Assembly (NCBI GenBank): GCA_963921195.1
Contig: OY992537.1
Span: 49,915,943 to 49,979,942 of the forward strand
DNA length: 64,000 nucleotides
DNA from: Pegoplata infirma
Lineage: Eukaryota > Arthropoda > Insecta > Diptera > Anthomyiidae
Direction: 5' to 3'
Made by a program: the position numbers and the translations under genes. The notes under the pieces are model-generated. The model ran no database searches. It was given only the letters and a program-made list of their open reading frames with translations, and was not told where the DNA came from. This document shows, piece by piece, positions 27,261 through 51,202 of this stretch (its first letter is position 1; every line of letters starts with the position of its first letter).

Positions 27261-27312
27261 CACTTTTCTCAATTCAAAAACCATATATAACAAATCGAAA
27301 AATTATAATACA

Positions 27313-27559
27313 CACACAGAAAACAAATTTGCTAATTTCCAACTGAAATTCAATTGTTGCAACAAAAAATCGGTGGATTCATTTGAATTAATGTTAAAAC
27401 AACTAAATATCGGTAGTTACAACAAAATGTTGTTATTACAACTGTCATTTAATTGAAACAACTATAAAATTCGTTAGACATATCAAAATGTAGTTGCAGC
27501 AACCGAATTTTGAGTTAATACAACTGAAAAATTCAGTTGGAAATTTATTTTTCTCTGTG
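27313..27559. mobile_element. MITE with CACACAGAAAA ends, 247 bp
   Basis: Left CACACAGAAAAC and TTTCCAACTGAA face TTCAGTTGGAAA and TTTTTCTCTGTG. The unoccupied version of this site is in the second direct repeat at about 28167 (AATACATAATTATAATTAG), which proves insertion and suggests a 2-bp CA duplication. The TTGTTGCAAC / GTTGTTATTACAAC interior is non-coding. Confidence 0.8.
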
Positions 27560-27868
27560 CATAATTATAATTAGAGCCTGAGCTCGATAATTTAAAAATA
27601 ACGACTATAAGTCGCCCTAAGTGGCAATATCAGTATCTTTGGAAAACTGGCAACACCTAACATTTGTGTCTAAAATATAGACCATGTCTGGCAACGTTTG
27701 CAAAAATAAGTACTTAGATCAGAATGAAGGAGAGGAAGAAGAATAATGATTACTAAAAATAAGTTTATTTACATAAAATAGCAATAACAACACTTCTGTT
27801 AGAAAAAAACTACAGCAACAACACCACTCGAATTGAAAAAATCAGATTTAGTTGATACTTCCTTAACA

Positions 27869-28019
27869 GCCTTCGTGGCGTATCGGTCTAGAGTGATTGT
27901 ACGTTACAAGCAGTTAATAGCAAAGTATTACAGATGATGATGGGTTCAATCCTCGGCGGCTGCGATCTGTAAATAATTTTCACATAAAGAGTTCTATTGA
28001 CTATTAACTAAATAAATTT
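27869..28019 (+). mobile_element. tRNA-derived SINE-like insertion
   Basis: A-box-like TGGCGTATCGG (27876-27886) and B-box-like GGTTCAATCC (27943-27952) are spaced as in a tRNA gene. The start GCCTTCG pairs well with CGGCGGC at 27954-27960. The anticodon arm does not fold, so it is not a working tRNA. The tail to 28019 is AT-rich. Its size accounts for most of the excess of this ribozyme unit over that at locus 3. Confidence 0.55.
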
Positions 28020-28091
28020 GGCATTAAAAGTTTTTCTGAAGATTATTATAACTGGATAATATGAAACTAGTAAGAAACAAACCAGGATGTC
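28020..28091 (+). ncRNA. Type I hammerhead ribozyme, locus 1
   Basis: Core: CTGAAGA (28036-28042), GAA (28063-28065), predicted cleavage after A28072. Stem I inner pairs GTTTTT (28030-28035) with AGAAAC (28073-28078), one G-U. Stem I outer pairs GGCATT (28020-28025) with GATGTC (28086-28091), two G-U. The internal loop between them is AAAA / AAACCAG. Stem II TATTAT / ATAATA is closed by loop AACTGG, with a U-U at its base. Stem III is the self-complementary ACTAGT (28066-28071), too short for a stable hairpin alone, so dimer action is likely. Hammerheads of this kind are known in Penelope-like elements and retrozymes. Confidence 0.75.
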
Positions 28092-28205
28092 TTAAATTTT
28101 TAGAAAAATTAAATTTTTCTTTCACACTTTTCTCAATTCAAAAACCATATATAACAAATCGAAAAATTATAATACATAATTATAATTAGAGCCTGAGCTC
28201 GACTG

Positions 28206-28640
28206 TCTTTACAGAAACAATAATTTAGAAACCCATTGAAATTGAAAAAAAATCGGTCCCCCCTTCGGATTAGGCTTAAATGACTCTAATAAGCGTATTA
28301 TAAAAGACATCGTTTTGAAATTTAACAGGTACTCAACTTTTGTATGCACAAATCTTCATTCCAAATTTAAAGGAATCTGGTAAGTCCTTCTCGTAGTCAA
28401 CTCCCCATACAAACCATTCCGATATCCACATAATTCCCTTAAAATGCATAAAAATAAAAATATTTAATAAAAATTTTATTTGTTTGTGTTAAACGTGTAC
28501 TTTGGTAACCTAAACAAATCTCAATATAATTGGACAATTTTTGGACTTATTGTTAGTCCTCCATATAAAAATTTCGACCGATGTTTCGTTAAACCGGTCA
28601 ATTAGTAAAAAACAAACCAATTCCACTAAAATTTGATCTG
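28206..28640. other. AT-rich stretch without supported gene
   Basis: It begins with the remainder of the second ribozyme-repeat unit (CTGTCTTTACAGAAACAATA), then unassigned AT-rich sequence containing TCGGTCCCCCCTTCGG and AAACCGGTCAATTAG. No open frame of note, no RNA recognised. Confidence 0.4.
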
Positions 28641-28945
28641 TGTGTGTTTTCTACACTAATAGAGATCTAACAAAAGATAGATCCAATCGGCCCATGTTTG
28701 GACTTGGGACGCATTTTCCGGAAAACACTGGTGTAGGGTATCATATGGTCGGCCTTGACCGACTATAACTTTCTTACTTGTTTTTTTTTTTTTTTTTAAT
28801 TTCATACGATTGACCTCCAATTCAATTTGTACCACATACGTTTTAGGTCTAGGAGTATTAAAATTTGCCGGACGTTTAAATAAAAAGACAAACTTTTTTG
28901 CCATACAAAAAAAACTGTCAGTCTAATCCGACATATTCATAAAAA
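28640..28945 (-). repeat. Dispersed repeat start module and linked block
   Basis: On the minus strand, AACAAGTAAGAAAGTTATAG, TCGGTCAAGGCCGACC, ATGATACCCTACACCAG (28790 down to about 28727) is a variant of the fly dispersed-repeat start, with the typical hairpin TCGGTC ... GACCGA. Next to it, 28800-28930 repeats the block with TTTTAGGTCTAGGAG and TGCCGGACGTTTAAA also seen near 13270 and 45560. The minus-strand frame 28656-28904 runs through both. Confidence 0.6.
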
Positions 28946-29030
28946 GTGTCAGCTCATTCAGTTTATTATCTATCGTTCTTTAAAGCGAGAGACAAATGGA
29001 AATTGTCAGGTCGTGCAAAAATCATAAATA

Positions 29031-29523
29031 CAGTCGAACCCGGTTATAACGAACTCCGAGGGACCAGTGAAAATCGTTCGTTATACGCGAAGTTCGCTAT
29101 AAGCGGGTATAATTTTTATCAACCTATTGTTATTTCCAAAAAAATAGATCCAATTTGGTGTTATTTCATGTTTTTTCGTAAATAAACTATTTATTGAGAA
29201 GAAATCATTAAAAATATAAATAAATTTTATAAAAATTATAATATAAACCAAAAAATTCCTACCTTTTGTTAGTTTGATAAACATGATTGCCATACATTAA
29301 AAAAAGTTTATGGGAGTTCGTTATAAAAAAGTAAATATACATGAAATTGTGTTCGTGGGACCATAATAAGCAGTTCGTTTTAACCGAGGATTCGTTATAA
29401 CCGAGTTCGTTATAAAAGAAGTATTTTGTGTGAAAATTTATGCTAAAACGTCGGGACTTTAGAATTAGTTCGTTATAACCGAGAATTCGTTATAACCGAG
29501 TTCGTTATAACCGAGTTTGACTG
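29031..29523. mobile_element. Pogo/Tigger-type MITE, 493 bp
   Basis: Ends CAGTCGAACCCGGTTATAAC and, from the right, CAGTCAAACTCGGTTATAAC, flanked by TA on both sides. Right-end subterminal copies of TTCGTTATAACCGAG are repeated at least four times (29391-29510), and the left side has the complementary GGTTATAACGAACT. CAGTC ends with a TA duplication and GTTATAAC repeats fit pogo-like Tc1/mariner elements. No transposase remains; frames at 28946-29185 and 29081-29293 cross the boundary or lie inside. Confidence 0.85.
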
Positions 29524-29592
29524 TACTAATTTTTTTTCTCTATCGGTCCCAGATCGATATTTCGAACTTTTGATAGAGGGTTAACAAATAAC

Positions 29593-31033
29593 ACACTTAA
29601 AAGAAAAACTCTGTCAAAAAGTCTGTAAAACAACTTTCAGTTTGATTTAGCAATCTTTCAGCAGATTTTTCTGCTAAAATGGATTTTTTTACTAAAATCT
29701 CTGTTATTCAGCTTTATAAAATAACAGAAGTTTTACTGCGTTTTTACTGATTCTGTTGGCTGAATTTCAAAATATGTTTGAACATATTTTTAACAGATTA
29801 TTTTGTAATTTTACAGAAATAGTTTGCTGTCATTTTTTTTCAAGAAAACTTTCAAACTTTCATCAAAATTTTCTAAAAAATGTCTTAGCAGATTTCTCTG
29901 CTGTTTTGACAGATTTCTCTACGGATTTCACCTAGATAATCATGACAGATTTTCAGCAAACCGTGTCTGCTAAAATCAGCAGATTTCTCAGATTGTCTTT
30001 AGCAAATCGATTTAAGTTCTTAATTATCCGCCGTAGTTTTATAATTTCAACTGTATTTTTTTTTTTAATTGTTTATTAATTCATCATTATTATTATTGAA
30101 ACACATTATTGTATTTAAAAGTAATTAATTAATAATTTTATTGTGAAAAAAAATTATAATGATGCCAAAAAGAAGAAGAGAAGGAAACAAAAAACATGTT
30201 GCAATGTTTTAATATTGTTTAAAATATGCAATAAACCAAATAAATGCTCTTATTTCAATGAATGTGTGCAATACAATACAAAATAATAATGAAAATATTA
30301 TAAATGTATGTTTACACGTTCATAAACTATGATCAAAAAGTATGCACAAATTTTTAATAAAAAAATTCTCTGCTAAAATTAAAAATCAGTCTGGTGCACT
30401 CAAAAGAAAACCTCTGTAAAAAAATCTGCAAAATGACTTTCAATTAAAAAAAAAAATCGCAGATTTTTCTGTTGAAATGAATATTTTAACGGAATTCTCT
30501 GCCATTGAATTTTTGAAAATAATAGAAATTTTGCAGAGCTTTTATTGATTCCGTATCTAGAAATTAAGTAGACGACTATAAATAGCTTTCGCTTTAATGC
30601 GTCACTAAATATGTGAGCTGTAGGAATTTATATTGCAAAAGATCAGAAACAAACGCATTATTTACAAAGGATAGTTTTTTTTCTGCTGAAATCAACAGAT
30701 TCTCTGACATTCAATTTTTGAAAACAATAGAAAATTTGCAGAACATTTATTGATTCCATATCTAATAATTAAAGTGGACGAATATAAATAGCTCCCGTTT
30801 AAATGAGCTTTAAGATTTTATGTTGCAAAAGAACAGAAACAAAGACATTATTTACAAAAGAAAATTTTTTCTTCTGAAATCAACAGATTTTTCGGCTGAT
30901 TCGACCCAGTTTATCACTACAGAAATTTAGCCAACCGCATCTGCTAAAATCAGAAGATTTCTCATATGGCTCAAAATGGGTGTATTTTCAGCAGATTTTT
31001 CTGCTGATTGGACAGAGCTCTTATTTTAAGTGT
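29593..31033. mobile_element. Inverted-repeat element with ACACTTAAAA ends
   Basis: Left end ACACTTAAAAGAAAAACTCT faces right end AGCTCTTATTTTAAGTGT. The interior repeats AGCAGATTTTTCTGCT-type palindromes and CTGTTATT / AAATAACAG blocks. A related second start, GCACTCAAAAGAAAACCTCT, lies at 30394, so this may be two overlapping or tandem members (the 30541-30600 and 30750-30800 blocks are also repeats of each other). Non-coding. Confidence 0.65.
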
Positions 31034-31480
31034 AGCCAAAAACACATCATCTGAAAAATTTTTAAAAAATAAAATTTCTTTCATAAATTTCTTATACTTT
31101 CACTACATAGTTTTACAAATATACAGTCATTCGCTATTAAACATATGGATTTGCGTGCAAATATGATGAATGTTGTATATTCGAATGTTTTTTTTTTTTT
31201 GTTTTTGTGCTGTTGTTGTTTGTAAATTCAATTGTTTTACAATTATTTACCACGAAAATAATTATTTTTCTTGTATTTTCGAAATGCAAAAAAAAAGTAA
31301 AATAAAATATATATTGAAATACAAAATTTTTGTTCATGTTTATAATTGTGTTGAACCGAGAAATATCCACAATAATACAACAACATTTACAACAAACCAA
31401 AAAAAAAAACTCAACTATATTTAATTTTAAATAGCACACAGAGTTAATTAAAATAATATTTAAGCCTTATATAAGTGAAC
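31034..31480. other. AT-rich stretch without supported gene
   Basis: Two open frames cover the same bases on opposite strands (31137-31439 minus, 31170-31424 plus). Both are dominated by F, K, N, I and short C/V runs from TTT and TTG repeats, with no domain, so I reject both. Nothing else recognised. Confidence 0.45.
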
Positions 31481-31679
31481 AAGTCGAATATCCTGTCCCT
31501 GCCAGGCGGAACACCAAATCACTTTTCTCAATAGTTCTAATATTTTACCAAACTTTAAAAAAAATTATGTTTGTGCTTAAAAATTTAATATTGCTAGATT
31601 GAGTTACATCAATATATTTCCCAAACTGGAAAAAAATTAATGAGTATAAAAGGTTTTATTGATAAAATTTTAGAACTAA

Positions 31680-33870
31680 ATTTAGAACGCCCATTTCGTC
31701 TCTCCGTTCATAAACCGGATATCAAAAATCCATCGTGTGGATCTGTCCCATGGTCACTCCTATATACATGGCAATTTTTATCTTTCTTTTTATCATGAAG
31801 TGTTTTAAAATTAGTTAAAATGTTAAAAAACACAAAAATTTTTCTACTTAAATTTTTCCTTATAATTCTTCGTACACAGTTTAAATATTAAATCTGACTT
31901 CATAAGGATATGATCCATTGTCAATACTTTATGCTTTACAATTTTCAGCTTCCTTAGTCATTAGGGGTTTCAGAAATAGTTTAAATATTTAAAAACTAAA
32001 TTTCGCCGTCTTCCGCCAGTTTAGTTGTGCCAGCCGAATTTAGAGCCAACTACATAGTTTAATAACAACAACCGAAATTTTCGGTTGCCATAACCAAAAT
32101 TTGTTTTGAAAATTCTGTTGGTCCAAATAAATTTCGGTAATCGCAACCGAAAATTTCAGTTGTTGCAATAAAACCATGCAGTTGGCTCTTAATTCGGCTG
32201 GCACAATTAAACTGTTTTTTCTGTGTATTCCAAAATTTTTAAATCTGACTACTTTATGATAAGCTCCATCGTTAGTACTATACTCGTATCCACGCCCCTT
32301 TTCCCTCTCAATTCTCCGTCCACAGTCCAAAAATTTTAAGTCTGACTACTTAAGGATATGCTCCAGTGTCAGGACAATATGCTTGCAATTTTCGGCTGCG
32401 TAGGTCATTAGGGCTTTAAAGTTAGTCAAATAAAAAAAATAAAACACAATATTGCCTTGCCCCTTTTTCCTCTCAACTCTCCATCTACATTCCAAAAATG
32501 TTAAATCGGACTACTTTAGAATATACTTCATAGTAAGGACTACATGTTAGGGATTTTCAGCTTCCGTATTTATTGGGGCTGAGCTTAAAAATACTCTTAA
32601 ATGTTAAAAAAAAAAATTTTTTTGCCAAGTCCCTTTTTTCTCGTAATTCGCCGCCCACAGGCAAAAAATCCGACTTCGTAAGAATCTGTCCCTGGTGTTT
32701 TATTATATACATGCCAATTTTAAGCTTTTAAGTCCATCAATGAGATTCAAAAGGCGGTGGATACACAAAAAATAAGAGAAACACAAAAAATAAAATATAT
32801 ATTCAGAAAATAGATGGAAATAAATTTACCACGCCCTTTGCCTTTCTTATTCTCCACCCATCCACGAGCCTGGATATCAAAAATCCAGGCTCGTGTTGAT
32901 CTTCCACATGAAACCTTCTATATACATGCCAATTCTGTGCATTTTCCGCTTCCTTTGGGGCTTCAAAAGAAGTTAAAATGTTAAAAATCTCAATTTTGTC
33001 ACTCCCCATTTTCCTTTCAATTCTCCGCCCACAGTCCAAAAATTTAAAATTTGACTACTTCAGGATATGCTTCATCGATAGGACTATACGCTAGAATATT
33101 TTCAGCTTCCTAAGTCATTAGAGGACTTTAAAATAGGCAAAAATGCCAATTTTCATCTTCATATATCATTTGGGGTCTTCAAATTAAATATTAAAAAACA
33201 CAATTTTGCCACGCCCCATTTTTCTCTTAATTCTCCTTCCACAGCTTAAAAAATTTAAATCCAATTACTTCAGGATATGCTTCATTGTTAGAACTAAATG
33301 CTATGCAATTTTCCGCTTCCTAAGTCATTTGGGGTTTCAAAAGAAGAAAAAAATTTTAAAAAATCCCAATTTTGCCACGCCACTTTTCCCTCAATTCTCC
33401 GCCTACATTACGAAAATTTTGAATCCGACTACTTGGGGATATGCGCCATCGTTAGGACTTTATTCTAGGAAATTTTCAGCTTCCTAAGTCATTTAGGGGC
33501 TTCAAAAGAAGTAAAAATGTTAAAAAAATCTAAATTTTGCCACTCCACTTTTCCCCTCAATTCTCCGCCCACATTGCGAAAATTTTAAATCCGACTACTT
33601 GGGGATATGCGGCATCGTTAGGACTATATTCTAGGAAATTTTCAGATTCCTAAGTCATTTGGGGGCTTTAAATTAAGCAAAAACGTCAAAAAATTGCATT
33701 TTGCCACGCCCACTTTCCCGCTTATTTCTCCGCCCACAGGCAAAAAATCGAAAATCCGGCTACGTTAGGATCTGCCCCAGGTGTTTTACTATAAGCATGC
33801 CAATTTTCAGCTTTGTAGCTCATCAGGGGGCTTCAAAAAGCTCTGGATAGACAAAAAAAGAGGAACACAC
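31680..33870 (+). repeat. Tandem array of about 160-185 bp units
   Basis: Repeated phrase: TTTTGCCACGCCCCTTTTCC, TCAATTCTCCGCCCACAG, AAAATTTTAAATCCGACTAC, TTGGGGATATGCGCCATCG, AATTTTCAGCTTCCTAAGTC. Copies occur about every 160-185 bp; CCGCCCACA-like landmarks are near 32323, 32484, 32650, 33013, 33234, 33400, 33567 and 33730. A second-order repeat adds GGATACACAAAAAATAAGAG at about 32759 and a variant at 33846. One MITE (32017-32226) is inserted. Frames at 32040-32330, 32803-33039 and 33206-33487 are array by-products. Confidence 0.85.
32017..32226. mobile_element. Palindromic MITE (copy 2)
   Basis: Near-identical to 6503-6730 from CAGTTTAGTTGTGCCAGCC to ACTGTTTTTTCTGTGT, but lacking the outermost ACACAGAGAGAA on the left and with a small deletion after TTGTTTTGAAAATT. 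High identity between the two copies suggests recent activity. Confidence 0.85.
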
Positions 33871-34714
33871 AAATAGGGAAATTATATATACATATAGAAT
33901 ATAGATAGATGCAACTATTAAAACCAAGAGGAACAATCGACTGTTTATGGAGGGCCGTTTTTCTATATTTAAATTCGAACTTTTCACAGAAAATAAAATC
34001 GTCAAATTTAAATCAACAAACATCGATTGTAAATCACCCAAACATGATATCAACCAAACATTTGGAAAAAACGGCCGCCAGTTAGTCCATAATACAAAAT
34101 TTCGATTTTGTTTTCAACAAACTTAGTCAAGTAATTTTATTTCAAAATTATTTTATCATGTCAACAAAAAGTTTTTGTGTTTGTTGAATTTCTTTGTTGA
34201 AAAAAAAAATAAGATTTTTTACGTTTGTCAGATCAACAAATTGTGTTTGTGTTTGTTGAATTTCTTTGTTGAAAAAAAAAATAATATTTTGTACGTTTGT
34301 CAATGCAAATAATAATTTTAGAGAACTATTACAAACTCGTTTATCAATTTTTTTACATATTTTTTTCAACAATCAATATTTACAAACGTTAGTTGATACC
34401 ACAAATTTACGTATAGGAGCACGTTCAGTGAAAAAGTTAATTGTATTCACAAATATGGGGGTCAATATAACAATTCGTTTTTTTCTGTGTTCAAGTTTAA
34501 ATTGTTATTTTTTGAGTTTAAATTGGAATATTCAATATTTTTTATATTTTCTTTATCATCTTTGAATTTTAATCAGATTTTTCGAATTTATTTTTGTGTG
34601 ATTGTCAATTGGTCAAAACGTTTTTTCACATAATTCCAATTAACCTTCTTCGAATTTCATTTGATTTTTTGTGGAATTTTCTTTTCTGAATTTGAAATCA
34701 TTTTTTTTTCGAAC
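33871..34714. other. AT-rich stretch with a 72-bp tandem pair
   Basis: A phrase TGTTTGTTGAATTTCTTTGT, TGAAAAAAAAAATAA, TTACGTTTGTCA occurs twice with 72-bp spacing (starts at about 34179 and 34251). GGAGGGCCGTTTTTC (33942) and AAAAACGGCCGCC (34067) make a loose inverted pair. Frames at 33823-34053 (-), 34148-34372 (-) and 34266-34565 (+) overlap each other or the tandem pair. No gene supported. Confidence 0.5.
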
Positions 34715-35035
34715 TTAATTGGTATTTTTGTCATTCCTTTTGTAACTCATCGAAATATTGGTCTGGGACCCCATCAAGTATATATTTATATTATTGATCA
34801 ATGATCGATTTTAAAATATTCTAGCGGTGTCCGTCTGTCTTACTGTTAAATAGCGATCACGGCAGATATGACTAAAACTTAACATACTTACTTGTTGTCG
34901 CCCCAAGAAGTTTGGTTTTACATTTGAGCGATATCGGTTTAGCGGTTTAAAAGTTATGAACGAAAATATAAGAACATCTCGAAAATGTTGATGCATTCGA
35001 CATAACCTAAAAATATAAAATGCTTTGATTCGACT
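34715..35035 (-). repeat. Fly dispersed repeat, minus-strand copy of the end part
   Basis: GTCATTCCTTTTGTAACTCA, TCGAAATATTGGTCTGGGAC, CCCATCAAGTATATATT and GTGTCCGTCTGTC are the complements, in reverse order, of the end modules seen at 23870-23990. CGATATCGGTTTAGCGGTT and GAATGCATC-type blocks follow. Frame 34811-34996 (-) lies inside. Confidence 0.7.
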
Positions 35036-35043
35036 GCTGTTGT

Positions 35044-35321
35044 CATATCGCTAATTTACTTGTACAGTGTCTTAACTCAAAATATGTCGTTTTTGAGTAA
35101 ACAGTACAAAATTATTTATTATATCCTGCTTTATATTGTGTCAAAAATTCGGATTAATATCTTTTAAACTCACCGTTTGAGAAGAGAACACACCATTATA
35201 ACATTTTCTATGTACGGGCCTTTTGCAATGTAAAGCAAGTTTCAATAGTAAACTTTAAACAGGTTTTCTGTAAAAGCAAACATTTTGAGTTATGACACTA
35301 TACAAGTAAATGAGCGATATG
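35044..35321. mobile_element. Inverted-repeat element, about 278 bp
   Basis: CATATCGCTAATTTACTTGT, ACAGTGTCTTAACTCAAAA on the left faces TTTTGAGTTATGACACTATA, CAAGTAAATGAGCGATATG on the right, about 43 bp with few mismatches. The interior has a weaker second inverted pair. Non-coding MITE, superfamily unclear. Confidence 0.7.
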
Positions 35322-35369
35322 TGAACAGAATTGGATACCGAATGGTGTTTTAACAAGTACAAACATATT

Positions 35370-36165
35370 AAAAAAAAAACAAGTAAAAAACTTAAATTCG
35401 GCCTTGCCGAATGTAGTTTTACAATTTCTAAAAGATTATTGCAAAAACTTTATTTAAAAGGAAATTAAAAAAAAAAAAAAAATATTTCGAAAAAAAAAAT
35501 TTCCGCGAAAAAAAAATTTGGTAAAAAAAAATCCGCGATTTTTTTCTTTTTTTGTCAAAAAATATGTTCATACTTGTTTAAATACAAAAAAATTTGGTAA
35601 AAAAAAATCCGCGATTTTTTCTTTTTTTGTCAAAAAATATGTTCATACTTGTTTAAATACAAGATGGTGTTCAATTATGTTCACATAAGTCAACCAGCAG
35701 CCGAATTAAAGCATTTTGAATTTTTAGGTTATGTTGAATGTACTAAAATTTTTGAGGTGTCCTTACATTTTCGTTCATAACTTTTGAACCGCTGAACCGA
35801 TATCGCTCAAATGCAATACCAATAATATTTTGGCCGTGATCACCATTTCCACTGATAGACAGATGGACATCGCTAGAATGTCTTAAAATCGATCGGGGAT
35901 CATGAATATATATACTTTATGGGATCCCAGACCGATATACAGAGTTACAAACGGAATGACAAGCTTTAATATACCCTCTATCAGCGACGTATTCAGAGGG
36001 GGGGTCCAACAACAACAACAATTTTTTTTTTATATATATATTTAAAAACACAAATCTCACGAAAAGAACAACAAAATTTTTTTTGTTGTTGTTGTTGGGC
36101 CCTGAAAAAACAATCCTGCGTACGTGTATGCCCTCTATCACTAGAGACGAGGGTATAAAAAAATG
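35370..36165 (+). repeat. Fly dispersed repeat, copy with a 149-bp hAT-like insert
   Basis: It starts AACAAGTAAAAAACTTAAAT, TCGGCCTTGCCGAATG and ends ACTAGAGACGAGGGTATAAA. It contains a 103-bp direct duplication (AATTTGGTAAAAAAAAATCC, at about 35515 and 35588) and the GACAGATGGACATCGCTAG module. The insert 35982-36130 lies in the ACCCTCTAT module. The minus-strand frame 35917-36141 crosses the insert and is spurious. Confidence 0.75.
35982..36130. mobile_element. Miniature hAT-like element, 149 bp, 8-bp target duplication
   Basis: Ends CAGCGACGTATTCAGAGG and, from the right, CATACACGTACGCAGGATTG. The exact octamer CCCTCTAT flanks both sides (35974-35981, 36131-36138). The interior is nearly all inverted (CAACAACAACAA ... 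TTGTTGTTGTTG). The left end matches that of the larger element 37652-41553 (CAGCGACGTATCCAGG), so both were probably moved by the same transposase. Confidence 0.85.
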
Positions 36166-36541: not shown

Positions 36542-36810
36542 CCCTACAACAGCGGTTACCAACCTATGGTACGCGTACCACTAGGGGGTACGCGAAACTG
36601 TCCACGGGGGTACGCAAAATTTTAGTAATTTGGACATTCGTTTTAGATTAACCTTTCAATGCTGGTTCCGCATCTGGCTTCCAAAGTATTCCATAACGTC
36701 TGGTTTTTAAAAAAGTTGAGGTCAAAGTGCACAAAAAATGTATTTTTGTGCAATTTAGGGAGCATTATTTTGCGATATTTTGAGATCTGACCACTTGTTT
36801 TCGATTAACC

Positions 36811-39806: not shown

Positions 39807-39842
39807 AAGTAGCAGTTGCTTTAATATTTTTTTTTTTTTAAA

Positions 39843-41394: not shown

Positions 41395-42884
41395 TTATAA
41401 AAAAAAATAAAATCTTTTCTTTTAAAATCAAAATATTTAGAAACTTGTGAATTTTTTTTGTATAATGCTTATTTGTGTATAAAATTTTCAAAATTTTCAA
41501 ATCGAAAAGGGGGGGCACGTGCCCCCTGTGCCCACCCCCTGTATACGTCCATGTCCAGAACAAATATTAAAAGTGCTGCCAACTATATTAGTTTTTGCTC
41601 GAATAACGCAGTTTTAAAGTTTTTTGCGATTTTTAGCTATTTTTTGTGATTTTTTGTGGGGGAAAATGTTGCAATATTTTTTATGTTTTGTTTTATTGTA
41701 TTTCAGGATTTTCAACTTTTATTTTTTTATGTTTTAATTACTTGTTTATTTGTAATAAAACTGTTTTTAATAAAAAGTTGGTAAAATTTTAATGTTTTTT
41801 ATGATTTATATTAATAATGAAAATTTCCCGGGATTCCCGGGAAATAAATTGTTTTTTTCCCGTTTCCCGGGAAATTGAAAAGTCCGGGAATTCCCAAACA
41901 CTAGTTGTGATAGAGTGGAAATTTTGGTACCATTTTGTTAAGCTTAAAATGCCCTTTCATTGTATATAAGAGGGTTTTTCATTCGAAAAGTCACGGAATT
42001 GTTGATCTGCCCTTGTATTAAAAAAAAAACATTTAAACAAATTAAAAAAAACATTATATTTCCGCCCTCTGTGATGTGTTTTTGAAACTTTTTTAATGAG
42101 TTCAAAAATCGTCTGTTTTTTAAAATTTTGGTGTATAAACGACTGGTGAAATCAGATTTGAAATATTTTCAGCTGTTTTTGCTCTGCAGAAAAATCAGCT
42201 CAAAATGCGCGTTTTCAGATGCATTGAGCCATCAATTTTTCCAAAACACCACCATTGTTTTGATCTCCCCTAAATCCGCCAAAAAATTATAATACCCGCA
42301 GATCAAAAATTTCAAATGTTTTTTCTAACGAAAACAAAAAAATTGTTAGGGGGTACGCGGCAGACAAAATTTAAAATTAGGGGTACGCGAGTCAAAAAGG
42401 TTGGTAACCGCTGCCCTACAACATGTTAAAAACAAAACAAAATTTACAGGGTTTTTTTTTGGGTGGGGGTGTGGGGTCATCTTCGGCAGTGGCTGTTGGG
42501 GACACCAGCCTGCTCGCGAAATATGTTTAATAATTTATTTATTTAGCTTTTTGCACGAAAGTTATACAATTTTATCATTGTTTAAACTTGTTTTATATCC
42601 ACGCCTTCAAAAGGGGCGGACCGAAAAAACGACATTTTCTAATCCCCCATACTGTAGGACGTAGAGATGTGCGCGTTAAGGCTTTTGGCTTACGCTCTCG
42701 ACATGAACCTTCCAATCACACACACTCACTTACGAGCCTTTTTTTTAATCACACTAACTCACAATCTCGTGAATAAATTGAAGACAACTCACGTCTACTC
42801 ACACAAATTTTACGTACACTCACGTTGACTCTCAAAACTTTTTATTTATAAAAAAATTAAATTTTTGAAAATTCTATTCGGATA

Positions 42885-43708
42885 TAGGGTTGCCAGACGT
42901 CCCGCATTTGGCGGGATTGTCCCGCTTTGTGTCGACGTTTCCCGCGTCCCGCGCGGGATTCCAAATTCCCGCTTTTTTTAGCGTCTGAAATTTATTTGTC
43001 AAATAGACCATAGAAACTGCCATTGCAATAAAGATTTGTTGAAGCCAGTTGTGCTTTTTATGGACAGGTTTGTGCTGCTTTTGCAAAAAAAAACCTATTT
43101 GAGAAAAAATAAGAATGAATTGGGTTTTTACGCAATGGTTTAGATTTTGGGCAATCCGTATAGTGTTTGCTGAATTTAACTCAGTTCCGATGAAGTTTTT
43201 GTAAAGTAAAAGCCATAATTAATCAAATTTTTCGACATTCACAAATATTTTTTAAACTAAACAACAATAATATGAAAGCATTGGAATACTTATCCATGGC
43301 ATGTCTATTATTGCGTCCCGAATTCGGTTTTTTGAGAATTTTAAAAAGTGCTTGTTTCCAAAACGATGCGCAATTGGAAACCCTTTATGGAAAAAATAAC
43401 CAAACATTTTTTGACTAAAGCCCAGTTATCAACCAACTTCCAAAGAAATCTTAGAGCATTTCGATACAAAAAAAAAATTCGATAAAAAAAAAAACTGATG
43501 CCAAAAGTTGAGCAATAAAGAGTAAATTCCGGAAAAAAATATTACCAACACTTCCATTGGTCCAGCAATGCGTCTTAAAAATTGTGTTTTTTTAGGTAAA
43601 GGGTTTTGAATATAGGCCCTCGATAAAAATCTATCTTTTTTGTCCCGCCATTTTATCAATTTTTTTGCGTTTGTCCCGCTTTTTGGAAATAAATTTCTGG
43701 CAACCCTA
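42885..43708. mobile_element. hAT-like element, 824 bp, 8-bp target duplication
   Basis: Ends TAGGGTTGCCAGA and TCTGGCAACCCTA, exact octamer TTCGGATA on both sides (42877-42884, 43709-43716). Subterminal TCCCGC / GCGGGA repeats (42900-42975, 43643-43682). Interior (43000-43640) has no intact frame; minus-strand frames 42874-43086 and 43429-43659 are short and the first crosses the left edge. Confidence 0.9.
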
Positions 43709-43914
43709 TTCGGATAACATTAGCCCGTGCCGCACGGCGATCAATGTTTTTAATTTTTTAAAATTAAAAAAAAAAAAATTTAAAAAAATAAGTCATGCGA
43801 TATACATCATATAATCTTTATACGCTGCAGACGAATATCAAAAAATATTACTTTTTTTGGATGGTGAATACGAATATTTTTGAAATCAGTCAAACGGTTT
43901 TTATCACACAGAAA

Positions 43915-44517
43915 AAAATATGGAGGAAACAAATTTGAGTAATCACTTGTTTAATTTTTTAAAAAAAATTTGAGTAATTTTTTAATTGACGCAATTAAAA
44001 ATTTACTCAAAAATTTAAAATAAAATTTGAGTAAATAATTTAATACAAATTTAATATTTTTTTTTATTTATTTTTTTTTCTCTTGGTGTTTTGAATTCTC
44101 ATTTAGTTTATTGATTTTTGTATATGTATATGAAAGTTTGAAATCATCTTTATAAAATTTTACTTTGTCTTGAAGACATAAGTATATTTGGTAAAGTTTG
44201 TAAAAGCAATTTTTTTGAAAAAAAAATTAGAAACTTTTTAAACTTTTTAAAAAAATAATTTGATACATTTTGAGTAAATTTTTACTTGACACAATTAAAA
44301 AGTTACTTAAAAATATTAAAAAAATTTAAGTAAAGATTTAATTGTGTGAATTAATAATTTACTCAAATTTTTTATTAAGCATTTAATAATTTTTTATTAA
44401 AAGTTTACTCAATACTATTAAATCGTTTACTGGTGGAAAATTGAGTAATTTTTTACTCAATAGTATTAAAAATTTACTCAAATTTTTTTTTTATTTTTTT
44501 CTGTGCAGAGACCATAT
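43915..44517. mobile_element. MITE with CACACAGAAAAAAA ends, about 600 bp
   Basis: CACACAGAAAAAAATA faces TATTTTTTTCTGTGCA. The interior repeats GAGTAATTTTTTA and TAAAAATTTACTCAAA in both orientations. The ends are of the type seen at 27313-27559 and 6503-6730, so a common transposase may move all of them. Non-coding. Confidence 0.7.
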
Positions 44518-44569
44518 GATAAAAATCAAAAAATAAAAGTTATTACAGATTTTAGCACGGAACATCTCT

Positions 44570-45640
44570 AGAAATCCTTTCATATATAAAATACTTAGTT
44601 TGGACAACATTCGTTTAATGATTTTTTTAAAACAAAAAGACACATATAACTGTTATATTTGGTCTCTGGTTTTTATATATTTGAAATTTGTAAGCATGTA
44701 CGGTTTTTTCGCCCTTCGATCAAAGTGTTGGTTATTAAGAAACTTTTACCAAAAAGTCTTAATTTTGATCGAAGACCCCCATAAGTTAAAATGGTCTGAT
44801 TAGGCTCAAATTAAGTTTTAAGGGAATTTTGTATCAGTATCTATGAAACTGTCAATGAAAAAAAATTGAGAATTTAGGAAAACCCGCCATTTGTGGACGT
44901 TTTTCTTTTACAATTTTCAAATGGCGATATCTCGAAAACCTCTCTACCGATATCAGAGGTTTTTGTGGAAATTTCATAAAAATCTAAAACTTTGATCGCA
45001 TGGCGCCACGGGATTGGGCTCAAAATAAGTTGAAGAAAAATTATCTCAAGCCATGTGAAAGAGTCAAGGGAAAGAAAGTTTGAGTTCTTTTTCAGTATCT
45101 ATGAAATTGTCAATGAAAAAAAATTTAGAATTTAGGAAAACCCGCCATTTGTGGACGTTTTTCTTTTACAATTTTCAAATGGCGATATCTCGAAAACCTC
45201 TCTACCGATATCAGAGATTTTTGTGGAAATTTCATAAAAATCTAAAACTTTGATCGCATGGCGCCACGGGATTGGGCTCAAAATAAGTTGAAGAAAAATC
45301 TCAAGCCATGTGAAAGAGTCAAGGGAAAGAAAGTTTGAGTTCTTTTTAAAAAAAAGTTCTTGAACGTAGAAAAAAACCGTATTTTTTTAAATTTTCGATA
45401 TCTTAAAACACATTATTCGTGTTCAGCGCATCAAAATTAATAAATATAATGCATCTTTAGAGATATATATTTTTTTTATTTTTATTTTTTTAATTTTCAA
45501 AAATCAAATCTTTGATTGGCGGACGCAAGGATTAATTTAATCCGATTTGCCTTAAATTTGTTCCACAAAAGTTTTAGGCATAGTAAAATAAAAATTTTAC
45601 CGAACATTTAAATTCGGAAGAAAAACTTTTTTGTCTTGTA
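44570..45640. repeat. Composite dispersed repeat with a 258-bp tandem duplication
   Basis: Two nearly identical units (44834-45091 and 45092-45345, period 258 bp) carry ATCTATGAAACTGTCAATG, GGAAAACCCGCCATTTGTGG, GGCGATATCTCGAAAACCTC and TTTGATCGCATGGCGCCACG. High identity implies a recent local duplication. Flanking parts match 26517-27260 and 12770-12900. The following 45500-45640 matches 13205-13350 and 28790-28930. Frame 44600-44803 lies in repeat. Confidence 0.75.
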
Positions 45641-45913
45641 AAAATATGCCGCGTAATAGTGCTGACGTAATGCATCACCACTCGCGGAAAACCAAATAAA
45701 CAAAAAATGAGTAAAGTTGAAAACTTAATTAAACTGTTAATTAAATATTTAACTAATATTAAATTTTAAAACAATTAAAAATTTAATTGAAATAAAATAT
45801 TCGATATGTTATATGGCGTTAAAGGTTGAAGGTTAGATGGCGTTGAAGTTCGATCAAAAATTGATTGTTCAAAAAATTGTGTTGGCCAGTGGAAAAGCGG
45901 ATATTGCAGCTTG

Positions 45914-46370
45914 TACACTCAAAAAAACCCTTTAAAAATTACACGATAAGATTGTAACTTTTTTTTGCTACCTCCTATTTGAGAATTCCTTGTTATTTTA
46001 CAAACTTTTTACCAATAATTCTGTAATTTTACTAGCTTCTTACCAAAAAAATTGTAAATTTCAATTTTTTTGACGCGATAAATTTGCGATCTTTTTTGTA
46101 ATTTTACAATATTTTTACCAATAAAATTGTAAATTTACTTACAACTTTTTTAGCAAAATAAAACTTCAAGAAATTCTCTTAAATTTACTAGATTTTTTTG
46201 TAAAAAATCTTGGAAATTTGTAAAATTACAAGAAGAACTGTAAAATTCAAAAAAATTTAAATTTCGATCGAAAGTTATTTGTAAAAAACAAGGAAAATTG
46301 TCAAATATTGGTAAGATGGGATTACGATACTTTTTCTTGTAATTTGACATTGTTGTTTTTTGTTAGTGTA
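45914..46370. mobile_element. Inverted-repeat element, TACACTCAAAAAAA type, uninterrupted copy
   Basis: It starts TACACTCAAAAAAACCC and ends GTTTTTTGTTAGTGTA. Interior phrases TTTGCTACCTCCTATTTGAG, TTTTACCAATAATTCTG, TTTTTGACGCGATAAATTTG and TGGTAAGATGGGATTACGAT serve as a reference for the interrupted copies at 6735-8350 and 49131-51872. GTAAATTTAC-type palindromes recur inside. Minus-strand frame 46150-46350 is spurious. Confidence 0.7.
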
Positions 46371-47270
46371 TAAGCTTACAGATCTTATAAATTTTAGATC
46401 AAATCTAAACGCCATATTTTATCTAAAAGCTTTATATAGTTCATATCATGTTTTATATTGTTAGTTTTTTGTATTATTTATTATTTCGGTGTAAATAAAA
46501 ACCTCTTGTGTATTTTGGCTTTGAGCCAAACATTTTTAAATATTACTTGTTATAGTTGTTGTTTTGTTTCTAGTAGGATTTTTTTTTTAAATATTAGTTT
46601 AAAATTTTTGCAATTCTAAGGTAATTTTTCATTATACGAAAATTATTTTATTTGTTCTTCTCGTTTTTAACCCAAAAAGTTTTTGTTTTCTTTTGTTTAT
46701 GGGGGTGCTATTGTTATAATCTTCACTTTAGGATGAGGGTATATTTAAGTTTATCATCAGGTTTGTAACACATCGTAATAAAGATATACGTAAGATGAAT
46801 AAAACAATTTTTTGTTTGCAAATAGCTCATATATTTAAGCATTTGCAACAACAACTAGCATATAGTATTATTCATTTGTTAATCATATGTAAATCTGTTT
46901 TTAATATTTTTTTTGTTGATTATTTGACGATCGTGATCTTACTAACAATAAGATGGTGAAATTTTCTTCTTCTAATTCTCAATGAGAGTAGAGTCGAATA
47001 TGTATTAATATTTTTGTTTCAACACTAGCAATTTGACATTTAAATTCCTTTGGATACTTGTAGTATAAAGTTTTTATATATTCTAAATAGTCTTGACAAT
47101 AAAATCTGACAAATTCTTAAACATGGTTCGACTAAGTCTTGCACAAAAGACCAGAATAATTAAATTTAAAACAGAAAAATAATTTTCTTGAAAATAATTC
47201 TGCAAGAATAAAATAGCATCATAAAATATACTCGTGATGGCTAAAGTTTATGAAATAATTCAGCCATTCA
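46371..47270. other. AT-rich stretch without supported gene
   Basis: No open frame or RNA gene recognised. A degraded dispersed-repeat end (GATGAGGGTATATTTAAG, TTTATCATCAGGTTTGTAAC) lies at about 46731-46770 and the block 47125-47230 resembles 6355-6440. The rest is unassigned. Confidence 0.45.
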
Positions 47271-47424
47271 GTAAATACTAGAGTTGTCAACTGATTAAGA
47301 ATAATTCGATTAATCGACCAAACAAAACCAAACTCTTGTTCGATTAATTTAAAAAGGACGATTTTCGAATAACAAATAAATCGATTAATTTATGCCAATT
47401 AATAGAACAATTTTTTTTATTATG

Positions 47425-47950
47425 CCCTCCAACTACAGTATCGAAATATCGGTCCATAAAGTATATATATTATTGATCAGTGATCGATTCTAAGGCATTC
47501 TGGGTGTCTGTTTGTTCGTCTGTGGAGGGCACGATACAGTCGAAAATAAAAGAGGTATACTCCTGAAGTTTAGCACGATTATGTCTTATGGTCATAGGAT
47601 GGTTGAGTTCGTTGGCATAATCGGACGACAGTAAAAATGTTCCCCTTAAAGAACTAAAACAACACCAGAAAAACTCAATTTTTTACATGTCTTCTGACAT
47701 ATTTATTAAACAAGTGAAATATTTTTACGCCATATAAAGTTCATTGATCTGCATTTCGATCAAGATGATTAGAAAATGATATTTTTTCGGCCCGCCCGCT
47801 TTTAAGGGCGTGGCTATAGAAAAAAATACAAAATAATGATAAAAGTGTGATTTTAGGCGTAAAGAAATAAATTTGTAAACATTTATGAAGTGGGTAAAGG
47901 TGTCCTCCAACGTCCCCCGCCGACTCCCTCACCCAAAAGTAATCTAAGTT
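47425..47950 (-). repeat. Dispersed-repeat fragment and GCCCGCCCGCTTTT block
   Basis: CGAAATATCGGTCCATAAAG and TATATATTATTGATCAGTG (47449-47490) are the complement of the dispersed-repeat end. From 47515 the sequence AGTTTAGCACGATTATGTCT ... CGGCCCGCCCGCTTTTAAGG parallels 12897-13205 and 63600-63770. Frames 47725-47910 and 47741-47956 lie in it. Confidence 0.6.
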
Positions 47951-48181
47951 ATTCAATATTTTTATATATTTTTTAAATAAAAATGAGAAAAAAAAATAAA
48001 AATTACATTTTTAATTTTTTTAAATGTTGTTTTTTTATTTTTAGTATATACAATTTTTGCTTTAGAAGAGTTATTTTTGTTGGAAAACAGATTTCGGACC
48101 TTCATAATAGTATTTCTCAAATAACTTGTGAAATATATCAAATATTATGTCTGGTTTGATGTTTGATTGACCAACGATGAT

Positions 48182-48246
48182 TCTCTAAAGTCTGCTGAAG
48201 ATTCCTTAGTGGGGATGAAACTGATCAGTACAGACATACTATGAGA
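48182..48246 (+). ncRNA. Type I hammerhead ribozyme, locus 2 copy A
   Basis: Core CTGAAGA (48195-48201), GAA (48217-48219), predicted cleavage after A48230. Stem I inner GTCTG (48190-48194) pairs perfectly with CAGAC (48231-48235). Stem I outer TCTC (48182-48185) pairs with GAGA (48243-48246) across an internal loop TAAA / ATACTAT. Stem II is TCC / GGA plus a U-G pair, with a U-U at the base, 48202-48216. Stem III is the palindrome ACTGATCAGT (48220-48229), longer than at the other loci and able to form a short hairpin. Most convincing of the four by base pairing. Confidence 0.8.
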
Positions 48247-48677
48247 TGAGTAACTTTTTTAAAGCAATAAATTAAAAATACTCTATTATGACAATATCAT
48301 ATATAGAAATATTTTTGGGCCTCGAACTAGAATAAAACTCTAATCGAATATATATACATATATAAAGGCCGAATAAATACATTTTATTTTTATGTACCTT
48401 TTGGTCCTAAAAATAAAAAAACAACATTTAACACAAAGTTTAGTACGACTTATCCTACCAACACTATTGTTTGGTTAGGTACTGTTGTTATTGTAAAATA
48501 ACAGCAACACATATATTAATAATTACCGATGGTGATTTAGTATATACAATTTTTGCTTTAGAAGAGTTATTTTTGTTGGAAAACAGATTTCGGACCTTCA
48601 TAACAGTATTTCTCAAATAACTTGTGAAATATATCAAATATTATGTCTGGTTTGATGTTTGATTGACCAACGATGAT

Positions 48678-48742
48678 TCTCTAAAGTCTGCTGAAGATTC
48701 CTTAGTGGGGATGAAACTGATCAGTACAGACATACTATGAGA
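48678..48742 (+). ncRNA. Type I hammerhead ribozyme, locus 2 copy B
   Basis: Same sequence as copy A shifted by 496 bp: CTGAAGA at 48691-48697, GAA at 48713-48715, predicted cleavage after A48726. Two ribozymes in direct repeat would cut a read-through transcript into a unit-length 496-nt RNA, which is how retrozyme monomers are thought to form. Confidence 0.8.
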
Positions 48743-49459
48743 TGAGTAACTTTTTTAAAGCAATAAATTAAAAATACTCTATTATGACAATATCATATAT
48801 AGAAATATTTTTGGGCCTCGAACTAGAATAAAACTCTAATCGAATATATATTTAATTTTTTTATGTATTTTTTGTTAATAAAATATTACCTAATTTATTT
48901 TTAAGGTTTTTGTATGAATTGTTTATTTTTTTGTTAACAAGAATATTTTTAAATAACCACCTTTTTATTCGTTATTCTCTTCGATTAATCGAATATTTTT
49001 TTAGATTTATTCTTTTGATCGAACAAACAAAAACAATTATTTGAATTATTCGAACAAAATTGAAAGGCGAATAATTGACAACTCTAGTAAATACTGGACC
49101 GATGCCATGAAGTTTGAAATGGTTAAAACCACACTCAAAAAAAACCTTGTAAAATTACAAGAAAAACTTGTAAAAAATTTTTTGTTTGCTACCCCCTATT
49201 TGACAAAAATTCCTAGCACTTTTATAAGCTTTTTACCAATAATTTTGTAATTTTACAAGGTTTTTACCAATAAAATTGTAAATTTACAAATTTTTTGACA
49301 CGATAAAATTTACAAGGAGGTTTCGTAATTTTACTAGATTTTTTGCTACCTCCTATTTTACGAGAATTCCTAGTAATTTTACAAGATTTTTACCAATATA
49401 ATTGTAAATTTACAGTTTTTTTTGACGCAATTAAAATTACAAGGAATTCTCGTGAATTT

Positions 49460-50257
49460 GGTACTGCGCAATAACTCCCAAGTGACATAACTCCCCAAAA
49501 AAAAATGAAACAACTCCCAAAAATTTTACATACGATTTGGGACTTATTTCATTATGAAATTAGTCCCAGTGTAGTGGGACTTATTGCACAAATTTTGTTG
49601 GGATTTATTTCATTATGAAATAACTTCCAAATGAAAAAAACCCCAACAAATATTAGATTGGGAGTTATTTCATTTCTTGTTAAGCATTGGGAGTTATTTC
49701 ATCAATGGTGGGAGTTATTTCATTTTAATTGAAAACAATATACACCTCTGTGCAATTGTTTTTTTTTTTGCTTAAATTTTTTTCTGCCTAGCCGGCCTTC
49801 GGCCGGGCTTACAAAATCCATGCATTAAACCCACCCTCTCCGCAAAGTAAAGTTTTCTAGGGTAGCAGGCCTTTACGCTCCAATTTGATCTGCCTCAAAA
49901 AGGCCTGATAACTGAAATACTTAGCTTTGGTTTGCAGAGAGGGTGGGTTTAATGCATGGAGTATGTAATCCCTAAGCACGGCCGAAGGCCGGCTACGCAG
50001 AAAACATTTATTACAAAAAAACAATGGGAACTTATTTCATTTTCTTTGGCACTTATTTCATTGGGAGTTCTTTCATTTTTTTTGGGAGTTATTATTTTGA
50101 TTTTAAATAACTCCCAAATATTGGGACATATTTCATTTTTTCTTTGGGAGTTATTTCATTTTTTAAAGTGTGGAGTTAATTCATTTTTCTTGGAACTTAT
50201 TTCATTAGGAATTATTTCATTGGGACTTATTTCATTTGGGAGTTATTGCGCAGTACC
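49460..50257. mobile_element. Element made of GGGAGTTATTTCATT repeats
   Basis: Ends GGTACTGCGCAATAACTCCC and GGGAGTTATTGCGCAGTACC are perfect complements. Between them GGGAGTTATTTCATT or GGGACTTATTTCATT is repeated many times (rightwards after 50020 and 49525-49735), with the complementary AACTCCCAA near the left. Flanks GTGAATTT / GCGAATTC may be a decayed 8-bp duplication. It carries the GC-rich hairpin 49788-50002. The plus-strand frame 49956-50282 only reads the repeat (LISLG / FHFF peptides). Confidence 0.75.
49788..50002. repeat. GC-rich hairpin element, 215 bp
   Basis: TTCTGCCTAGCCGGCCTTCG faces CGAAGGCCGGCTACGCAGAA at the two ends, and ATGCATTAAACCCACCCTCT faces AGAGGGTGGGTTTAATGCAT inside. 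One half-arm of the same sequence (GGAGAGGGTGGGTCTAAGGC ... AAGCCGGCTACGCAGAAGAA) occurs at 53806-53896. The strong GC hairpin stands out in this AT-rich window. Non-coding. Confidence 0.75.
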
Positions 50258-50715
50258 GCGAATTCGCTATTTTTATTTGTAAACTTACGGTGGCTCGCAG
50301 CTTATTTCGTGTGAAAGATATTAGTTAGCAATCCATTCAAGACAAAGTTAACCAAAATAGACCTAATTATTATCAAATAAGTATTTTTGTAAAAAGTCCT
50401 GTGTATGTAATTAATCAAGCTTTAATTCAAGCTTAATGGCATTCAGATTGTGTAGATATTAAATGTGCTACGAGGGTCGAAATGGAAATTGAAATTATTG
50501 AAGGACCTTTTTTAGAAAATTTCTTAAAAATATTTTTAGGTCGATTTTATCCAAGCTTAACATTAAAAATTTAAAAATATTCATTTATTAAATAATTTTC
50601 CCAAAGACTTAAACAAAACTCAAAATTTTTAGAACACAGTAAAAGAAATTTGAATTTCTTGACCTGCAATTCTTTTGATCACCAATTTTTGGTAAACAAA
50701 GAAAATAATTTTTAG

Positions 50716-51202
50716 AAATTCAATTTTTCTTCTGCATTTTTTCAACTTGAACCCTTATAACAAATATAATTAGAGCCCGTGCTCGATCTGTACTTACAGA
50801 AAAAATCAAATAAAATTACTGACAAAATATGTCGCCATTAGGCACGTCTCCGAAACAGAAAAAGCAAATTCCTTCATTTGTGTCTGCAATTCCAGATCAT
50901 GTTGGTAACCCTTGCAAAATAATGTAAGAGACAAAAAAGTTGAAAGAAAGTATGAAGTGAGGTTGAGATTGCTAGAAATAGAATTGTAGTGTTGGAAACT
51001 GTCAAAATTTATTCTGTAGAAACTATAAATATTCACATATATAAAAAACAGTTTTCATTAACAAGACAAACCGACATTTAAAATCCTACTGAAGATGACA
51101 CTAACTGGGGTGTTTGAAACCGGTATAGGAAATACCAGAAATGTCTATAATTTTAAAAAATTCAATTTTTCTTCTGCATTTTTTCAACTTGAACCCTTAT
51201 AA
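50716..51202 (+). mobile_element. Non-coding hammerhead-ribozyme repeat (retrozyme-like), locus 3
   Basis: A 44-bp direct repeat AATTCAATTTTTCTTCTGCA, TTTTTTCAACTTGAACCCTT, ATAA starts at 50717 and again at 51159, so the period is 442 bp. The ribozyme (51073-51145) lies just before the second repeat. Shared blocks with locus 1: AGAGCCCGTGCTCGATCTG, CATTTGTGTCTGCAATTCC, CATGTTGGTAACCCTTGCAA. There is no coding capacity. The insert interrupts an arm of a Tc1-like foldback, so it is a mobile unit. Confidence 0.75.
51073..51145 (+). ncRNA. Type I hammerhead ribozyme, locus 3
   Basis: Core CTGAAGA (51089-51095), GAA (51116-51118), predicted cleavage after A51125. Stem I inner TCCTA (51084-51088) pairs perfectly with TAGGA (51126-51130). 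Stem I outer GACATTT (51073-51079) pairs perfectly with AAATGTC (51139-51145). The internal loop is AAAA / AATACCAG, nearly the same as at locus 1. Stem II is GACAC / GTGTT (one G-U), loop TAACTGG, U-U at the base. Stem III is the palindrome ACCGGT (51119-51124), so efficient cutting may need two RNAs or a dimer. Confidence 0.8.

Follow-up and report, generated by a model that had tools for sequence, protein, structure and literature searches.

The question raised by a 64,000-nucleotide stretch of the genome of the dipteran Pegoplata infirma (assembly GCA_963921195.1, contig OY992537.1, positions 49,915,943 to 49,979,942; hereafter the window) is what kind of element carries a hammerhead-like ribozyme motif at loci near 28, 48 and 51 kb, and by what enzyme such elements are moved. 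Our favoured answer, to which we give a probability of about 0.68, is that the three loci represent new families of small non-autonomous retrozymes lacking long terminal repeats (non-LTR retrozymes), here designated A28, C48 and B51, which would be moved, probably, by the reverse transcriptase of Penelope-like elements (PLEs). The link to PLEs probably holds, and is drawn by way of the insertion signature: judged by the layout of its copies, C48 is a close match to the PLE signature, and A28 and B51 match it in the clustering of their 3' ends. An earlier note on this DNA had treated positions 27261-51202 as one feature with one fold at three loci. The single feature dissolves into three separate elements (Table 1); the three loci are real, though the number of motifs is four, since the 48-kb locus holds two.

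All four motifs lie on the plus strand and present their parts in the order of a type-I hammerhead, namely an open stem I, CTGAAGA, stem II, GAA, stem III, A17 and stem I again. They read GGCATT-AAAA-GTTTTT-CTGAAGA-T-TATTAT-AACTGG-ATAATA-T-GAA-ACTAGT-A-AGAAAC-AAACCAG-GATGTC in A28, TCTC-TAAA-GTCTG-CTGAAGA-TTCCTTAGTGGGGAT-GAA-ACTGATCAGT-A-CAGAC-ATACTAT-GAGA in the two C48 copies, which are 496 bp apart, and GACATTT-AAAA-TCCTA-CTGAAGA-T-GACACT-AACTGG-GGTGTT-T-GAA-ACCGGT-A-TAGGA-AATACCAG-AAATGTC in B51. The pairings that the earlier note quoted for inner and outer stem I, the self-complementary stem III and the constant core all hold on direct reading. The core of a hammerhead (CUGANGA, GAAA and UH at the cleavage site) is present in 4/4 motifs, and three helices surround it with helix I open, helices I and II being kept with compensating changes as a whole. 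Stem III is a palindrome without a loop (ACTAGT in A28, ACTGATCAGT in C48 and ACCGGT in B51), so that a full stem III can form only between two units or strands. The 10.1-11.1 position adjoining the core is U.U in 4/4 motifs instead of a Watson-Crick pair, which is usual, though not essential, at the base of helix II in hammerheads; 332 matches in the genome have a non-T base at this 10.1 position (control 163), as against 7,976 for the full pattern. As candidates for a tertiary contact between helices I and II, by Watson-Crick kissing, complements of 4 nt between loop II and the stem I bulge are found in A28 and B51 (CUGG/CCAG, p 0.008 and 0.03 respectively) and in C48 (UAGU/ACUA, p 0.12); in relatives the complement is shorter, with 2-3 nt in 4/6, and loop changes of B-type copies are unmatched in the bulge. 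A descriptor that requires the core, an inner stem I of at least 5 bp, 3 bp in stem II and self-complementarity of stem III matches the window exactly four times (core starts 28036, 48195, 48691 and 51089) and matched once in 1,500 simulated order-2 Markov windows; having been written once the loci were known, it is evidence of rarity and not of blind discovery. The hammerhead models of Rfam recovered nothing at the gathering threshold over the whole window, and nothing at E up to 10 over 26000-53000, 48150-48290 or five related loci. Taken on their sequence, the window motifs are a hammerhead-like class that present Rfam models miss.

A single hammerhead-like fold with pairing kept by selection is supported at the level of the whole structure but not of individual pairs. 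A covariance model built from seven A/B-type sequences was used to align genome matches into an alignment, A4, of 69 matches from 59 sources (59 distinct rows) of A28 and B51 type, which leaves out L113, L126, the C48-type motifs and the ACCATGGT-type motifs. Since A4 is fitted to the structure itself, which favours the structure in tests, its figures are to be read against their nulls: paired cells make up 88.8% of 938, where column shuffles give 76.5±0.7% (0/500), 100 cells have changes on both sides against 26.8 (0/500), and the structure score is 0.413 against 0.194 for shuffled columns and at most 0.127 for slid structures. The number of pairs with two-sided change, 12 against 9.9 in the shuffles (46/500), is not exceptional. 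With a tree-aware null the expected paired cells fall to 56.6±6.2% (0/400), and 11 double changes from pair to pair on the same branch compare with 3.6 (0/400); B-type sequences alone, with the A28 family removed, still give 9 against 2.2 (1/400). The stem II of B-type copies includes whole-pair flips, such as AACACTT/AAGTGTT and AACAGTT/AACTGTT. The claim of the earlier note that sequence changes while pairing is kept across one fold is thus borne out, for the fold as a whole, by the shuffles and the tree-aware null. The A/B-only model also reports the C48 ribozymes of the window, L001, L007, L010 and L028 at E 0.016-0.083 and, weakly, those of the C48 relatives L053 and L060 (E 0.32 and 0.8); up to E 1 it misses the C48 relatives L049, L059 and L061 and all five ACCATGGT-type loci given to it (L020, L021, L045, L064 and L067).

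In the 1.384-Gb genome a loose core pattern has 3,882+4,094 matches versus 86+90 for the reversed pattern, about 7,800 above control, with some sites matching twice. The "at least two subfamilies" foreseen in the earlier note proved an understatement, there being three families, relatives of the B and C48 types, and a fourth motif family. B-type relatives occupy 64 places in the genome (control 0), C48-type relatives carry CCC/GGG in stem II, and the fourth family (L020, L021, L045, L064-L069, L076 and L077) has ACCATGGT as stem III, mostly C as the cleavage base (C17) and mostly C.A at 10.1-11.1. Within this family the inner stem I of L064 is CTCCA/TGGAG, that of the others GCCTA/TAGGG. Most searches demanded the CTGAAGA core, and one related copy, L028, has CTGATGA. 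The core CTGAAGA...GAAA...(U)A is common to families sharing little else in a set whose members were found through that core. Monomers measured from cleavage site to cleavage site are 638 bp in A28 (L015), 442 bp in B51 (L009) and 500/497 bp in C48 (L010/L012). The A28 and B51 units share patches at 75-78% identity, and the C48 unit shares with them only snippets of 15-21 nt at E up to 1. Single units, partial tandems and arrays are all found, the array L011 having nine motifs and eight whole units by BLAST, and the window copies are circularly permuted. Repeats flanking A28 and B51 copies were entertained as long target duplications and rejected, being the overlap of circularly permuted units. 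No reading frame of at least 110 aa is listed in the three window elements; what A28, B51 and C48 present is a type-I hammerhead in AT-rich, tandem-capable units without long coding, as in retrozymes, and not the open reading frame with reverse transcriptase and GIY-YIG endonuclease of an autonomous PLE.

The evidence that points to a particular mover comes from the ends of the copies. The loci are the first places listed by the searches, mostly on one contig (C1), plus the window (contig C2); places fetched twice (L002, L008, L022-L024, L029, L031, L032 and L057) were dropped. With u1 as the first base past the predicted cut, 3' ends were mapped from pieces of at least 30 nt and at least 85% identity, by which L059 drops out, and the 137-141 bp loci L100-L139 were left out. 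In each family the 3' ends cluster at two sites lying 70-210 nt 3' of the predicted cut, with site 1 and site 2 about 50-75 nt apart. Among 28 A28 rows, one of them a piece cut by a nested insertion, 15 end at u71-87 and eight at u155-163; among 17 B51 rows carrying flanks, 12 end at u77-90 and four at u130-133; and among 32 C48 rows, 16 end at u118-135 and 12 at u193-210. One C48 locus is represented twice in these rows, as L007 duplicates part of L012, and L007 was dropped from the counts of arm similarity and 5' ends. The 5' ends are scattered, with 1/85 mapped ends within 2 nt of the predicted cut, which is no excess, and some apparent starts at u1 are an artefact of the query being cut there. 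On this count we rejected the idea that cut RNA served as the direct template, placing 5' ends at the ribozyme cut. A tract that exceeds the distance to its 3' site crosses the cut junction, which implies that it was not copied from a linear monomer already cut.

A head-to-head junction of two arms, which leaves a 3' end at each outer edge, is found in many C48 copies among those examined. Of 14 head-to-head loci, 11 are flanked by target duplications of 12-16 bp, in a comparison in which 182 mismatched flank pairs reach a maximum of 12 and 0/5,000 permutations reach the observed mean. Two further loci have duplications of 15 and 12 bp, so that duplications of this length, in keeping with the more than 4 bp expected of retrozymes where duplications are present, are found at 13/16 head-to-head loci, of which 14 are C48. 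These 13 duplications are 93% AT, compared with 71% for the window. The stretch between sites 1 and 2, here called the tail, is on exactly one arm at 14/16 loci, on neither at two and on both at none (p=0.004), or in C48 alone on exactly one arm in 13/14 (p=0.003); one arm each of L081 and L082 stops short of site 1 (at u85 and u102) and was scored as without tail, and L060, with ends too diverged, was left out of the head-to-head loci. The full PLE layout of head-to-head arms, a tail on one arm and two start sites is thus present in C48 and in one A28 case (L013). Similarity within a C48 locus also exceeds that to other loci for the inverted arms at 10/12 loci and for tandem units at 13/14, the corresponding figures being 1/1 and 3/4 in A28 and 0/1 and 4/5 in B51. 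Mean differences in C48 are 1.0% for inverted pairs, 0.6% for tandem pairs and 3.4% between loci, taken over pairs that are not independent, 15/42 of the inverted ones being from L010. This locus has three units on one side and three on the other, in near-identical multi-unit arms.

These features can be joined in a simple scheme. The single type-I hammerhead-like ribozyme of each unit would work as a dimer of neighbouring units, its cleavage yielding monomers or circles without setting the ends of copies. A Penelope-like protein, with GIY-YIG and reverse transcriptase domains, would nick both strands of the target 12-16 bp apart, and each nick would prime internal reverse transcription of the element RNA, one at site 1 and the other at site 2. 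Joining of the two resulting cDNAs would then give a head-to-head copy. The template would have to be an RNA with an intact cut junction, either an uncut multimer or a re-ligated circle.

A number of observations weigh against this proposal or limit its reach. Several head-to-head loci were chosen for opposed neighbouring motifs (opposed in 5/6 of one batch), and the share of this layout among all copies is therefore not given by the sample; among C48 places fetched later without that choice it was seen in 2/4. The layout with one tail is well sampled only in C48, with one inverted case each in A28 and B51, and that of B51 lacks both tail and duplication, its arms resembling each other no more than they do other loci. 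Even within C48 the arms of L003 and L141 are no closer to each other than to other loci, and L062 and L082 are without a duplication of at least 8 bp. Most single tracts are without a clear duplication: over 54 elements, repeats of at least 8 bp flank 50%, where the null gives 26%, and it is chiefly head-to-head loci that have the long ones. The overlaps of 1-7 nt at 10/14 arm joints, four of them of 1 nt, can be yielded by chance, and site 2 of B51 rests on four rows, two being stand-alone pieces of 62-63 nt. The duplications of 12-16 bp and tails of 50-75 nt are longer than the 8-10 bp and 30-40 bp given in the accessible portions of the PLE papers (PMC3846280, PMC11167929). As to the ribozyme, the unpaired 10.1-11.1 position and the failure of Rfam models to recognise the motif leave cleavage not assured, and, with so few 5' ends at the cut site, no trace of it is seen in the insertions. 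For A28 taken by itself, the tree-aware test gives no covariation signal (128/400). The earlier note had looked to individual covarying pairs in stems I and II; in an approximate, R-scape-like G-test over all column pairs with 60 null replicates, none reached E<=0.05, the best structural pair, 29-42, being at rank 2 with E=2.4.

The alternative closest to our proposal invokes the same mover and takes the units as solo or tandem pseudo-LTRs (pLTRs), left as internal-deletion relics of an autonomous PLE that lost its coding part. From what could be consulted of PMC3846280 and PMC11167929, pLTRs bear hammerheads, stand in tandem and show the head-to-head layout with a tail, and the A28 and C48 units of 638 and about 500 bp exceed the sizes given for animal retrozymes in the available text of PMC7229834 (RNAs of 170-400 nt, repeats of 150-450 bp). 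However, A28 and C48 share almost nothing beyond the ribozyme, so that several different PLEs would be required, no frame of the length noted above is listed in the window elements, and the stems exceed in length those of the minimal PLE variants in the part of PMC7761336 at hand; we regard such an origin as possible, though on the unlikely side. It is also conceivable that the motif has lost its cutting activity and is kept as a structured RNA for binding of the reverse transcriptase or another role, which is compatible with mobilisation by PLEs. The U.U at 10.1-11.1, the lack of Rfam matches and insertion ends unrelated to the cut site would fit this, as would the finding that in vitro an active PLE could do without its ribozyme (PMC11167929). 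Nevertheless, the core is constant across families sharing little else (though these were found through it), and an axolotl hammerhead with a U.U mismatch at the helix II base does cut, according to the accessible text of PMC7229834; loss of cutting thus appears doubtful to us.

Movers other than PLEs fare less well. Duplications of 12-16 bp and 5' truncation are also characteristic of long interspersed nuclear elements (LINEs), and a LINE-like frame with RNase H in the window and the tRNA-like boxes of A28 could likewise be counted towards LINE-mediated mobilisation, as in short interspersed nuclear elements (SINEs), with inverted arms arising from twin priming. Twin priming inverts part of a copy, in which only one edge is a 3' end. 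The present copies have 3' ends at both outer edges, for the most part at two different internal sites, and the tail on one arm is a feature published for PLEs (PMC3846280, in the part available), which together make a LINE mover improbable. A reading as plain satellite DNA, in which the ribozyme is a passenger and the spreading is due to unequal crossing-over and extrachromosomal circles, would account for the homogeneity of tandem arrays within a locus; it predicts neither clustered 3' ends nor target duplications, inverted arms or kept pairing, and we consider it highly improbable.

The window copies illustrate these points individually (Table 1). The C48 copy has a short inverted arm, a 13-bp duplication and a tail on the left arm only; the inverted piece at 48020-48046 matches u174-204 on the minus strand, and the left arm of about 20 nt was set by hand ahead of the duplication test. 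The A28 copy has its 3' end, u159, at site 2 of the family. A further piece of A28, 51 bp long and on the minus strand, lies at 24782-24832 and has its end at site 1 (u82). The label of the tRNA-like stretch in A28 is putative: it relies on A- and B-box motifs that we take to be those of tRNA promoters, its A-box-like string was the search key, the B-box pattern is in 1/15 rows (the window only), and the ARAGORN score was low under relaxed settings. Many A28 5' ends (u397-u552) lie in or near this stretch, and no such box-like strings were noticed in B51. The B51 copy is flanked by inverted arms at 50286-50706 and 51272-51709, and sits in a long-inverted-repeat element spanning 50286-51709, with arm pairs 50286-50576/51419-51709 and 50573-50706/51272-51405 that are 83-85% complementary. 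Elsewhere in this AT-rich (71%) window are a long minisatellite at 1471-4061 whose 35-bp unit, of consensus AGATTCTGAGACATTTTTTCTATAGAAAAATTCTC, is present about 53 times in 1471-3306, LINE-like reading frames at 14508-15832, one with an RNase H domain, and a 258-bp tandem duplication at 44834-45347, 97% alike.

Table 1. Elements of the three families in the window, with their predicted ribozymes and associated features; positions are those of the window.
Feature	Position	Strand	Description	Basis
A28-family element	27261..28231	+	~1.16 units of 638-bp repeat (u53 to u638, then u1 to u159), split by nested insertion	BLAST of L015 monomer, ends re-mapped
Miniature inverted-repeat transposable element (MITE)-like later insertion inside A28 copy	27313..27559	.	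17-nt inverted repeat 27334-27350 / 27529-27545	gap in unit match
tRNA-like stretch of A28	27876..27952	+	putative; A-box-like TGGCGTATCGG (27876-27886), B-box-like GGTTCAATCC (27943-27952)	
A28 hammerhead-like ribozyme	28020..28091	+	predicted cleavage after A28072	sequence, descriptor, covariance model E 1.5e-17 (own sequence among model's builders)
Left target site duplication	48010..48022	.	TTTAATTTTTTTA, 13 bp	
C48-family element	48023..48850	+	~1.64 units of ~500-bp repeat, short inverted arm at left	limits from target duplications
C48 hammerhead-like ribozyme, copy 1	48183..48249	+	predicted cleavage after A48230	sequence, descriptor, covariance model without C48 sequences E 0.083
C48 hammerhead-like ribozyme, copy 2	48679..48745	+	predicted cleavage after A48726	as for copy 1
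Right target site duplication	48851..48863	.	TTTAATTTTTTTA, 13 bp	
B51-family element	50705..51208	+	~1.14 units of 442-bp repeat (u22 to u442, then u1 to u84)	BLAST of L009 monomer
B51 hammerhead-like ribozyme	51073..51145	+	predicted cleavage after A51125	sequence, descriptor, covariance model E 2.4e-21 (own sequence among model's builders)

PLEs have been proposed as the mover of animal retrozymes, in the available text of PMC7229834 (Cervera and de la Pena 2020) without evidence from duplications, ends or tails and with insects named only in passing, and the portion of PMC7761336 at hand states that retrozyme repeats show no motif telling their mobilising enzyme. A literature search, mostly without subscription papers, found no report of the present insertion signature for retrozymes. 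The combination of clustered ends, a tail on one arm and duplications may be a motif of this kind, one that could tell which enzyme mobilises animal retrozymes and that makes the question testable. Whether animal retrozymes are moved by PLE reverse transcriptases that prime both strands of one target, from two start sites on one retrozyme RNA, is in our judgement evenly balanced. Were it so, many C48 copies, a family accounting by eye for about 40 of roughly 100 listed motif places, would be natural records of dual-strand internal target priming, and the near-identical multi-unit arms of L010 would suggest that both reverse transcriptases went several times round a circular RNA.

Like the animal non-LTR retrozymes described in the accessible text of PMC7229834, the present units have a type-I hammerhead, one per unit, in AT-rich tandem-capable repeats with thousands of copies and no LTR features seen, and as in the newt and axolotl retrozymes covered there, a weak stem III implies dimers; the axolotl hammerhead with the helix II-base mismatch is stated to cut better as a dimer. 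They differ from these in size, at 442-638 bp, and go beyond them in the duplications, the two clustered 3' sites, the head-to-head arms and the one-arm tail measured here. The SMalpha element of Schistosoma also has a type-I hammerhead in a repeated SINE-like unit, as far as its description in the available part of PMC8490949 goes, a likeness at the level of ribozyme type and unit; its unit is shorter (335 bp), and for A28 the connection with a tRNA-like promoter goes no further than resemblance.

In contrast to PLEs, no PLE-like coding was seen in the units. In the accessible portion of PMC3846280 a typical Penelope copy has an adjacent pLTR in head-to-head inverted orientation, optionally a tail on one inverted pLTR, and a short target duplication, and its authors weighed self-priming on an antisense template for inverted copies. 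A purified PLE protein, which prefers AT-rich DNA, cleaves both strands, extends them and begins at internal positions; the tail of PLEs is the sequence between their two start sites, with ribozyme cutting not needed (PMC11167929). As far as these two sources could be consulted, the present families, with C48 foremost, share with PLEs a hammerhead 5' of the start of reverse transcription, two start sites bounding a tail, a head-to-head inverted copy, AT-rich targets, short duplications and partial tandems.

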